Assembly (NCBI GenBank): GCA_943355025.1
Contig: CALRDW010000010.1
Coordinates: 1-34,143, forward strand
Length of the DNA: 34,143 bases
DNA from: Candidatus Magasanikiibacteriota bacterium
GTDB lineage: Bacteria > Patescibacteriota > Patescibacteriia > Magasanikbacterales > 2-02-FULL-50-9b
Direction of reading: 5' to 3'
The notes beneath the pieces are model-generated. The model searched no databases. It was not told where the DNA came from and saw nothing but the letters and a program-made list of their open reading frames with translations. Of this stretch, positions 9,077 through 13,871 are shown piece after piece. A program made the translations under genes and the position numbers. Each line of letters begins with the position of its first letter. The stretch's first letter is position 1.

Positions 9077-9167
9077 CTAACTTACACGATCTTTACCTGC
9101 CTGCCAAATAAGCACAGGGAATTCCGTGTCGCGCTTTCGCCCGTTCGATTCCCTCCTTCAGCCAAAT

Positions 9168-9209
9168 CAGACAAAAAATCACCACCTTTCGGTGAGGAAT
9201 TTTTGTCTG
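9168..9209. repeat. Imperfect hairpin / terminator-like inverted repeat
   Basis: CAGACAAAAA ... TTTTTGTCTG (10 bp) with inner TCACC-ACCTTTC-GGTGA. Confidence 0.6.
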
Positions 9210-9261
9210 GCACGCCGTAGTAGAGGAAGTCAGGAATATTTGTATAACAGAAACGCTATCA

Positions 9262-10608
9262 TTATATCAACGACAATAGTAACGCCATACCAAATATACC
9301 CATTACAACAAACGCAATCCACAACCCAAGCTTAGACCACTTTCCGCTCTTATATTCTCCCATTATATCTGAGCGACTTGATACGCGAGCAATGAGATAA
9401 ATGAGCGGTACTGCGGCAATACCATTAAACACGGCGGTCATCACCAGCGCTTTGATTGGATCAAAGCCCATAAAATTGAACAAAAGTCCAACAAATGTGC
9501 CAACAATAATTACAAAATAAAACTCCCGCGCTTGCTTAAACTTTCGAAATAAACCCTCTCGCCAATTAAATGTTTCAGAAATTGCATATGCCGAAGACCC
9601 AGCTAAAACAGGAATACTTTGCAGGCCGATCCCGATAACACCAATACTAAAAATAAATTTGGCTAAAAAGCCAGCATTCGGAAACGTATGTACCAATGGC
9701 TCAAGTGCTTTTGCGGCATCGGCAGCAGAGTTGATGTTAGTAATTCCCGCTGAATGCAGCACAACTGCACCCACCACGATAATAAACCATGCGGCAACGT
9801 TTGAAAAAAGCATTCCCACGGCAGTATCGATACGAAGTGTTTTTAGATATGACCTCGTCATCTTTGGAATACCGCCATTTTGAGACACGCGACGCTTTGC
9901 GATTTCATCTTCCACAACATTACTTGTTTGCCAAAAAAATAAATATGGGGAGATAGTGGTTCCAAACACAGCAACAATAATAAACAAAAAATCCTTACTC
10001 CATTCAACGTGCGGCACAAGTGTTGCTTTAAGTACGTCACTCCACGGCACGTTAATCATGAATGCGGTTATAAAGTATGCGAACAGCGCCATTGCGAGCC
10101 ACTTCAGAATACGTATGTACGTTTTATAGGAAATAAAAATTTCTAGCAGCATGATAAATACCGCAAAAAAAAGTGCAAGCAAGCCAAATGGAACATGAGG
10201 GATTAACAGTTGTGTGCTTGCTGCCATTGCGCCAATATCGGATCCAATATTGAACGTGTTCGCTACAACGACGAGGGCAACAACGGGATAAAGCACATAT
10301 TTTGGATAGTGGTCACGTACAATTGCAGCAAGACCCTTGCCTGTTACCGCACCAACGCGTGCACACGCTTCTTGAACCGCAGTCATGAGCGGGTATGTGA
10401 ACAACATGGTCCACGGCATGTGAAATCCAAATTGAGCACCGGCCTGTGAGTACGTTGCGATGCCAGATGGATCGTCATCTGCGGCCCCTGTCACAATTCC
10501 AGGCCCGAGAATGCGTAAAAAACGGCCAAAGCCTTTTTGCTTCCCTCGTTTATGAGCAAGAGCTGTTTTTTCTGATGCCTCGATGGCTTCGTCGGGAAGT
10601 TGGATCAT
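9262..10608 (-). CDS. Nramp-family divalent metal transporter-like protein (DDDPSG / TISPY variant)
   Basis: GPGIVTGAADDDPSGIATYSQAGAQFGF (TM1), FGTTISPYLFFWQTSNVVEDE (TM6 position), many TMs; start set at MIQLPDEA (10608). Confidence 0.85.
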   Translation of the reverse strand: MIQLPDEAIEASEKTALAHKRGKQKGFGRFLRILGPGIVTGAADDDPSGIATYSQAGAQFGFHMPWTMLFTYPLMTAVQEACARVGAVTGKGLAAIVRDHYPKYVLYPVVALVVVANTFNIGSDIGAMAASTQLLIPHVPFGLLALFFAVFIMLLEIFISYKTYIRILKWLAMALFAYFITAFMINVPWSDVLKATLVPHVEWSKDFLFIIVAVFGTTISPYLFFWQTSNVVEDEIAKRRVSQNGGIPKMTRSYLKTLRIDTAVGMLFSNVAAWFIIVVGAVVLHSAGITNINSAADAAKALEPLVHTFPNAGFLAKFIFSIGVIGIGLQSIPVLAGSSAYAISETFNWREGLFRKFKQAREFYFVIIVGTFVGLLFNFMGFDPIKALVMTAVFNGIAAVPLIYLIARVSSRSDIMGEYKSGKWSKLGLWIAFVVMGIFGMALLLSLI

Positions 10609-10705
10609 AAAATAATGAGATCTAAAAAAAATATTGTTCACGAAATCTATAAACTTGTATTATACAAGTGCTTTCAATTATAGCACACTCCCTGATTTTT
10701 GATGA

Positions 10706-10722
10706 CACGGGCGGAGGGAATC
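10706..10722 (-). repeat. 17-nt duplicate of the tRNA-Trp 3' end (att-like remnant)
   Basis: CACGGGCGGAGGGAATC identical to 12409-12425, the 3' acceptor/T-arm of tRNA-Trp. Confidence 0.75.
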
Positions 10723-10759
10723 CCGCGTCACGCAGCTCCTTGCCCGGGGCAGCATAGAA

Positions 10760-11608
10760 ATGCCACTGGGCATTGCTGCGGCGCGAAAAAATAAATCAGT
10801 TGATAAATTTTTGGTGCACAAGATCGACCGGTTCGCACGCAACTCTATGGACTTTGCGATCTTGCGATCACGCCTCCGATCCAAGAACGTAGACCTCGTT
10901 TCAATCGTCGAGCAGTTTGAAGACACCCCTTTAGGTCATTTTATGGAACAAGTTATGGCATCACTTGCTGAATTCTTCAGCGCAAATTTGTCGCTGGAAG
11001 TCAAAAAAGGACTAGACGAAAAACTTCGACGCGGCGAGTGGTGTTGGATGCCGCCCATTGGGTATGTTCGGCGTGGCGGTGAAATTGCGGTTGATGGAAT
11101 TCGAGCAACATTTATTCAAAGCGCCTTCGGTCGATTCTCCACCGGAACAATCTCAAGCAGTCAACTCGCTGAAGAATTGTATCTGCAGGGATTTCGTGGA
11201 TTGCACGACCAAAAATTGGATGCATCAAAAATCTGCAGAATACTTCATGATCCATTTTATGTCGGACGCATGAGGACCGGCGACCGTGACTTACCCGGCA
11301 AGCATGATGCGCTCATCTCACGCGAAATTTTTGATCAGGTGCAGGCAATTTTCAAACAGCGACCGACGGGTGGACGACACGCAAATCACCATGACTTCCC
11401 GCTCGCGCGAAAGTTACCATGTCCGAAATGTGGTATGAAACTAGTCGGTGAACAGCATCGAAAACCGACTGGACGTATTTACAAATACTATCGCTGTCAT
11501 ACGAAAGCATGCGGCACAACATTCACGGCCGAACAGGCCAAAAAAGAACTGATTACGACTTCGCCAATTTTGCTATCGCCCCCACATGCTCCCAAGAAAT
11601 CGCCATAA
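10760..11608 (+). pseudogene. Large serine recombinase (resolvase/recombinase domain) remnant, N- and C-terminally truncated
   Basis: VHKIDRFARN, FMEQVMASLAEFFSANLSLEVKKGLDEKLRRGEW, recombinase domain ILHDPFYVGRMRTGDRDLPGKHDALISREIFDQVQ, zinc ribbon LPCPKCGMKLVGEQ...YYRCHTKACGTTF; lacks the N-terminal catalytic Ser region (YxRVS). Confidence 0.88.
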
Positions 11609-12245
11609 AAATATTTCCTGAGAGACTTGGACCGTTCGACACAACGCCGATAAGTTTTCCTGATCCAAGTTCGATAACTGGTGACCCGCTAAATCCTCCA
11701 ACGACAGGACCCGAAATCTGAATTTCCTTGCGATTAGGATTTTGTTTCTTCTCTACGCCGACGACACCCTCTGAATATGTTGGCGAATGTAGCTCATTTA
11801 GCAACTGATTCCCAAGCGGAAAACCCACATATGCAACTTGTGTGGAAATAGGCATATAGGAATCAGTTATCTCAATTCCAGTTTCTGCTTGAGTATCGAG
11901 ATCTTGGCCTGCAATAGGCTGACCATTATTGTCGACAAGCTTTAATACAGCAATATCATGTGCCAAATCGATGCAATCAACCGTGGCGCGCTGATAGTTA
12001 CCAGCATTCCCCACTACAAGTAAACCGGACAATTCAAGCGGACCACCTATTAATCCCTGAACCACGTGTGCACACGTCACAAGAACTTTTTCCTCCTTCA
12101 ACCAAAAGGCAGTGCCTATAACATTTAATTCATCAGAAAAAATTCTACCTTGCTGCGGCGAAAACTTTGGACGAAGAGTGCCGACTGCGCGGACAGCGCC
12201 ATACACTGCCTGGGAGTTGGGCTGAGCCACTATTTCGTTTGACAT
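11553..12245 (-). CDS. Trypsin-like serine peptidase (S1-like), 230 aa
   Basis: Apparent triad: VTCAHVV (His), AHDIAVLKL (Asp), GPVVGGFSGSPV (Ser). Confidence 0.82.
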   Translation of the reverse strand: MSNEIVAQPNSQAVYGAVRAVGTLRPKFSPQQGRIFSDELNVIGTAFWLKEEKVLVTCAHVVQGLIGGPLELSGLLVVGNAGNYQRATVDCIDLAHDIAVLKLVDNNGQPIAGQDLDTQAETGIEITDSYMPISTQVAYVGFPLGNQLLNELHSPTYSEGVVGVEKKQNPNRKEIQISGPVVGGFSGSPVIELGSGKLIGVVSNGPSLSGNIFMAISWEHVGAIAKLAKS

Positions 12246-12344
12246 ATTAACAATCTACTTAGGAACAATGAAAAAAGTGTATCAATCAAAGAAGCTATCG
12301 TCAACAACCAAAAACCTACTCAAAAAACAAAATTTATGTACAAA

Positions 12345-12373
12345 ACAAAAATCGCCTCTAGGGCGATTTTTGT
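12345..12373. terminator. Bidirectional intrinsic terminator, 12-bp perfect stem
   Basis: ACAAAAATCGCC-TCTAG-GGCGATTTTTGT. Confidence 0.88.
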
Positions 12374-12405
12374 AACGTTTTTATTGAGTTCAACATCTTG
12401 CCAAG

Positions 12406-12479
12406 TGGCACGGGCGGAGGGAATCGAACCCACGCCAAAGGTTTTGGAGACCTTCGTTCTACCATTAAACTACGCCCGC
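12406..12479 (-). tRNA. tRNA-Trp (anticodon CCA), CCA encoded
   Basis: GCGGGCGTAGTTTAATGGTAGAACGAAGGTCTCCAAAACCTTTGGCGTGGGTTCGATTCCCTCCGCCCGTGCCA; anticodon loop CTCCAAA. Confidence 0.95.
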
Positions 12480-13720: not shown

Positions 13721-13763
13721 GGGATTTGCAATCTGAATGTTTACATTCGAGATTGCGAATCCC
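13721..13763. repeat. Long near-perfect hairpin (about 20-bp arms)
   Basis: GGGATTTGCAATCTGAATGT-TT-ACATTCGAGATTGCGAATCCC. Confidence 0.85.
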
Positions 13764-13782
13764 GAACGAGCCGGCCGTAGAC

Positions 13783-13838
13783 CCGAGCACCGCAGGTGCG
13801 AAGGAGCTGCGGGGCGAGAGACCGAGCACCGCAGGTGC
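13783..13838. repeat. Two direct copies of CCGAGCACCGCAGGTGC (each containing the palindrome GCACC-GCA-GGTGC)
   Basis: 13783-13799 and 13822-13838, identical 17-mers. Confidence 0.9.
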
Positions 13839-13871
13839 AGCGAGGGCCAAGGTATGCGAGTCCCCATCCTA

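Follow-up and report, generated by a model that had tools for sequence, protein, structure and literature searches.

Introduction

Which element left a second copy of the tRNA-Trp 3' end in this genome, and was it the truncated recombinase lying between the two copies? The window, by which we mean the whole stretch of 34,143 nucleotides that was analysed, carries CACGGGCGGAGGGAATC exactly and in identical orientation at 10706-10722 and at 12409-12425. The first-pass annotation took the two copies for the attL and attR of a small degraded element made of a serine recombinase and a protease. The analysis described below leads us to conclude that the repeat is the scar of an insertion at the 3' end of tRNA-Trp, and that the recombinase is probably not its cause. 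The scar is likely to belong to a smaller and less familiar element than the one first proposed.

A displaced tRNA 3' end

When the window was searched for the 17-mer with up to three mismatches, only these two matches were found (shuffled sequences give an expectation of 0.04), and the 988,540-base genome, searched with up to two mismatches, contained the same two only. The duplicate is thus exact, co-oriented and not widespread away from tRNA-Trp. The repeat can be extended to 10703-10722 versus 12406-12425, where 19 of 20 bases agree, and it then spans the T-loop to the CCA of tRNA-Trp. An intact tRNA gene and a co-oriented displaced 3' fragment, two of the parts of a tRNA-gene element in the Islander definition, are both present; between the copies, where that definition places the element's own integrase gene, lies a truncated serine recombinase, but the displaced copy is adjoined by the remnant of a non-coding unit that occurs by itself elsewhere. 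The first-pass annotation was therefore right in reading the repeat as a tRNA 3' end displaced by integration in a stretch that has since degraded. The source genome is a draft assembly of 33 contigs, which could raise the suspicion of chance or of an assembly artefact; this is extremely improbable, as the match lies far beyond chance and the architecture recurs in many genomes, including one listed as a single contig (G066). A second tRNA with the anticodon CCA was called by ARAGORN in G000 (L145, G000:C16:14826-14898).

Table 1. Features of the tRNA-Trp locus, in window coordinates, from the tRNA outwards.
Feature	Position	Strand	Basis or remark
tRNA-Trp(CCA), intact; 12406-12425 is the proximal repeat copy	12406..12479	-	ARAGORN
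Palindromic terminator AAAAATCGCCCTAGAGGCGATTTTT, behind tRNA-Trp	12345..12374	-	sequence
Trypsin_2 (trypsin-like) protease, complete, 230 aa, co-directional with the tRNA	11553..12245	-	domain search
Large serine recombinase remnant: partial catalytic domain, Recombinase domain, zinc ribbon	10784..11552	+	Pfam, alignment with full-length relatives
Three-way-junction interior remnant, class like that of G003 tRNA-His	10716..10786	-	homology 10716-10774; boundary with recombinase about 10775-10787
Displaced tRNA-Trp 3' end (17-mer plus 3 nt), likely distal direct copy of the unit	10703..10722	-	
Displaced flank CATCAAAAATCAGGG, a terminator start, as shortly behind tRNA-Trp of G001 and in G003 (one difference)	10690..10704	-	
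Nramp transporter gene, 91% protein identity to its G003 counterpart in the same place	9262..10641	-	
S site ATACAAATATTCCTGACTTCCTCTACTACGGCGTGCC, signature found at the end of cargo insertions	9208..9245	-	
Second unit remnant	9115..9207	-	palindromic terminator 9168-9207; inverted T-arm copy GGAGGGAATCGAAC 9143-9156

A recombinase fossil from a tRNA-directed clade

The roughly 1.7 kb between the copies does hold a recombinase remnant and a trypsin-like protease, as first annotated, on opposite strands and with overlapping ends; the open frame at 10706-10783, however, is a non-coding remnant and not recombinase. The Pfam Resolvase match of the recombinase starts at profile position 58 and is followed by the Recombinase domain. 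Alignment with relatives, which at full length mostly have 480-620 residues, places its start past the middle of the catalytic domain, the N-terminus with the catalytic serine being gone, and the first 26 codons of the open frame have no clear match in these relatives. Both the Recombinase domain and the zinc ribbon are retained. The protein stops just past the latter, with its C-terminal third missing and its end overlapping the stop codon of the protease.

A convergent tRNA gene, usually overlapping, stands at the recombinase stop in 29 of the 31 homologues of the order (loci L002-L034), and many isotypes are involved. Hence, the recombinase is probably the trace of a second element that used the same tRNA. 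Serine recombinases next to tRNA-Trp, for which the first-pass annotation proposed a search in relatives, were found in G019, G027, G028, G041 and G069. As the window recombinase has the same orientation as these, it is most likely descended from such a tRNA-directed serine-integrase element. No long direct repeats were found at these five loci (that of G019 is a 4.9-kb contig only) or at tRNA-Glu of G000, and G002-G004, three of the six family genomes, yielded no P0001-like serine recombinase. Serine recombinases at tRNA 3' ends, as in this clade, are unusual, and those targeting tRNA genes were said in the Islander paper not to be known (PMC4383910). An integrase gene split by its own insertion, with the frame running through the repeat (SSV-type), was also considered and rejected: the plus-strand frame into the tRNA copy stops at 12385-12387, and 10706-10783 is unit sequence.

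A non-coding unit behind tRNA genes

In this Magasanikbacteria family, tRNA genes of at least 13 isotypes are followed, at a distance of about 50 nt, by a non-coding unit of about 150 bp. It consists, in this order, of a terminator, an inverted copy of the T-arm of the local tRNA, a covarying three-way junction and a direct copy of the tRNA 3' end that begins in the T-loop. In relatives, this arrangement is seen behind tRNA-Met, -Ser, -Cys and -Gly, with an interior of G+C-rich hairpins. A covariance model of the unit gave 25 matches, which are spread over all six family genomes and mostly lie 42-54 nt behind a tRNA on the same strand. The matches of an order-wide search with this model fell mostly in the same family, and a search of 380 genomes of the phylum gave almost nothing outside it. 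Searches for the arms found the same architecture in other families, so the model is too narrow. Look-alikes occur across the order; tRNA-Trp of G070, G020 and G066 has the architecture, and tRNA-Ser of G066 (L126) is followed by two near-identical tandem units.

The unit is predicted to fold as a three-way junction. Double changes, altering both sides, occur in 34 of the 38 pairs of the fold; 87% of the alignment cells are paired, compared with 68% in shuffled and 25-44% in slid alignments, and covariation is above that of all shuffles, in an alignment that was fitted to the model, which favours this result. The arms follow the local tRNA closely. The distal arm matches its own tRNA over a mean of 12.9 nt (up to 21) versus 5.7 nt for other isotypes, and the match is at least 10 nt long in 14 of 21 cases versus 0.5% with other isotypes. 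Both arms are present at 30 of 264 tRNA loci, compared with 0.9% when isotypes are swapped, with the inverted arm at a median of +50. G-U pairs make up 0.9% of P2, the main helix, versus 5.6% in the tRNAs of the same genomes, a difference for which high G+C could partly account. Because the main helix is almost free of G-U, the fold appears to behave like, and to be maintained as, a DNA site.

At the loci of four relatives, only tRNAs exceeded the Rfam gathering score, and for the unit and the window stretch nothing but tRNA came near it; an identity with RAGATH-33 was dismissed, the match being far below that score. Literature searches on tRNA-associated MITE-like hairpins and on tRNA elements of CPR gave nothing on point. 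This kind of unit was thus found neither in the RNA-family library (Rfam) nor in the literature searched. Separately, conserved sequence common to several genomes and devoid of unit arms lies behind tRNA-Ala or -Pro at L136, L174, L181, L196 and L209.

The units could be immobile. They would then be conserved RNA structures, 3' trailers of tRNAs, or duplications in which a tRNA 3' end folds back around the terminator, with the direct copy made by local templated repair. The inverted arms flank palindromic terminators symmetrically and may reach a considerable length (21 nt at tRNA-Asp of G000), and palindrome-templated correction could explain why arms match the local tRNA. We nevertheless consider this unlikely. 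Occupancy of the same tRNA is patchy between genomes, the interiors of units at different tRNAs and in different genomes share up to 92% identity (G004 Leu versus G003 Asp), displaced 3' ends carry terminators of their own, two unlike units can stand in series, and G-U pairs are scarce.

The unit remnant of the window and probable insertion in series

On the minus strand, 10716-10774 is 77% identical to the G003 tRNA-His unit over 60 nt (E 1e-7). The unit of the window is too decayed to receive a score from the covariance model, and its assignment is made from this 60-nt match and from its position. Its terminator and inverted T-arm copy are absent, and the recombinase remnant stands in their place. 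From this comparison of sequences, the reported 17-mer can with fair confidence be regarded as the distal direct copy of a unit.

The corresponding locus of G003 has the same gene order, its tRNA-Trp being followed by a 140-codon gene, a degenerate displaced tRNA-Trp 3' end and Nramp, with neither recombinase nor protease. The displaced end is therefore independent of the recombinase-protease block. The sequence past the displaced copy, both in the window genome and in G003, resembles the terminator behind tRNA-Trp of G001. In G001 itself, tRNA-Trp is unoccupied, has no unit and carries the displaced flank. The G003 unit before Nramp is of a class different from that of the window, and hence the two genomes probably received their units separately.

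Units also occur in series. At tRNA-Asn of G005 (L106:60-420), two different units follow each other, separated by an exact displaced 3' end, and at tRNA-Ser of G002 a displaced 21-nt end is followed by a second terminator. Serial units, displaced ends and near-identical interiors fit repeated site-specific insertion between the tRNA and older units. Intact serine-integrase elements at tRNA-Glu of G021 (about 11 kb) and tRNA-Ser of G080 (about 5.5 kb) are flanked on one side by the tRNA and on the other by unit-like structures that have displaced copies; at the distal end of the element itself, no more than a short stretch matches the tRNA terminus. In the window, too, the tRNA is followed by the protease and the recombinase remnant, then by the unit remnant, the displaced copy and Nramp.

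These arrangements bear directly on the reading of the two copies as attL and attR of a single recombinase-protease element that has shrunk by deletion. Serine recombinases of this order do abut tRNA genes; a serine integrase with a 20-bp repeat of the tmRNA 3' end and T-loop insertion is published for the ssrA islands of Dehalococcoides (PMC3146451); and in G027 no unit accompanies the 15-nt copy that closes the element, 10 kb away from tRNA-Asn. Against this, the left copy adjoins not the integrase but the remnant of a unit, and such units occur by themselves behind many tRNAs; G003 has the equivalent copy before the same Nramp gene with neither of the two genes between, and the G021 and G080 elements end at a short core with the unit beyond. 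The single-element reading is thus rather improbable, and the attL/attR assignment of the first-pass annotation is not upheld. We favour instead, as the likely explanation, a layered integration hot spot behind tRNA-Trp, in which the 17-mer was made by insertion of a small unit.

Probable cargo genes and a second remnant

The protease is probably single-gene cargo. Most neighbouring genes are 40-58% identical to their G003 counterparts; judged by its far higher identity (Table 1), Nramp was probably acquired horizontally, also as cargo. Among 86 genomes of the order, the S site was found behind tRNA-Trp of G000, G003 (three times) and G004 only. When the S site was tested for a dyad with the cargo start by ungapped shuffling, significance was not reached, and the reading of S sites as serine-recombinase attP is thus only a lead. 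In the second unit remnant, the interior is shortened, the distal copy is degenerate and the inverted arm is displaced from the tRNA.

The array behind tRNA-Trp of G003 (L067:9720-15983) consists of single genes, all co-directional with the tRNA: the 140-codon gene, Nramp, a regulator-like ORF, and LD-carboxypeptidase-like, inositol-phosphatase-like and phosphotransferase-like genes, where all names except Nramp are impressions from the sequence. Behind several of these genes come an S site and a terminator. In G004 (L068:8384-9106), the stretch from tRNA-Trp to an S site contains a fragment of a reverse transcriptase similar to the enzymes of diversity-generating retroelements. Elsewhere in the window, the G+C-rich stretch 13740-13870 has a 17-nt direct repeat (at 13783 and 13822), and its positions 13801-13821 are similar to 10721-10741 of the unit remnant; it is possibly another decayed unit.

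Discussion

The nesting of these features suggests the following order of events. A small non-coding unit would have inserted at tRNA-Trp and made the reported repeat. On one side, the tRNA would have stayed whole and gained a new terminator; on the other, its original 3' end would have been pushed away together with the old flank. A tRNA-directed large serine integrase element would have entered later between the tRNA and the unit, with the 3' end of the integrase gene towards the tRNA. This element would then have decayed, losing the catalytic N-terminus together with the terminator and inverted arm of the unit, and losing the C-terminus where the protease cargo gene now ends.

We infer that the units are mobile and that they act as folded DNA, most likely being moved in trans by a recombinase on extruded or single-stranded DNA. 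The enzyme could be a serine integrase acting in trans, Xer or something else. Three of the six family genomes have no recognisable relative of P0001, and the tyrosine recombinase, of which each family genome has one, is Xer-like in the one that was read (G000). Neither a circle nor a pair of strains with empty and occupied sites was seen. Tentatively, and with somewhat less than even confidence, we propose that the units, about 100-190 bp long, are integrative DNA elements of a new, gene-free class, mobilised in trans at many tRNA isotypes of this CPR order, with a three-way junction whose closing stem would be rewritten at each insertion to match the target T-arm and a terminator of its own that would keep the tRNA functional.

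Several known systems share some of these properties. Like integron attC sites, the unit is conserved as a fold and not as a sequence, and the G003 array resembles integron cassettes in carrying single-gene cargo in series at one locus; here, however, no IntI was recognised, the one tyrosine recombinase read being Xer-like, the targets are tRNA T-loops of many isotypes, and the arms copy the target. MITEs and REP/BIME palindromes are likewise short, non-coding, palindromic and dispersed, whereas the units stand strictly about 50 nt behind tRNAs, with target-matched arms and a tRNA 3'-end duplication. Tycheposons also target tRNAs, displace their 3' ends and carry cargo, but they are large and use a tyrosine recombinase. 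The ends of Islander tRNA-gene islands are similarly marked by a restored tRNA and a displaced 3' fragment, but these islands are attributed to tyrosine integrases only (PMC4383910), and the units are gene-free. A further parallel is with the ssrA islands of Dehalococcoides, where the 3' end of a CcrB-like serine recombinase (DsiB) is known to run into the target RNA gene and where, besides T-loop insertion with displaced 3'-end repeats, there are tandem accretion and integrase-free islands. Those are kilobase islands with genes at one target (tmRNA), and in the part of the paper used here a non-coding unit with a target-matched inverted arm is not described (PMC3146451).

A serine recombinase clade that is almost always found at tRNA genes runs contrary to the Islander statement (PMC4383910), and its sites at tRNA ends could serve as integration tools. 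If the units are mobile, gene-free elements target the tRNA genes of reduced CPR genomes and copy the target into their own fold, a mechanism that, if true, has no description in the literature searched. Layered islands such as this one can also be used to work out in which order genes were gained, in organisms of which most have not been cultured.
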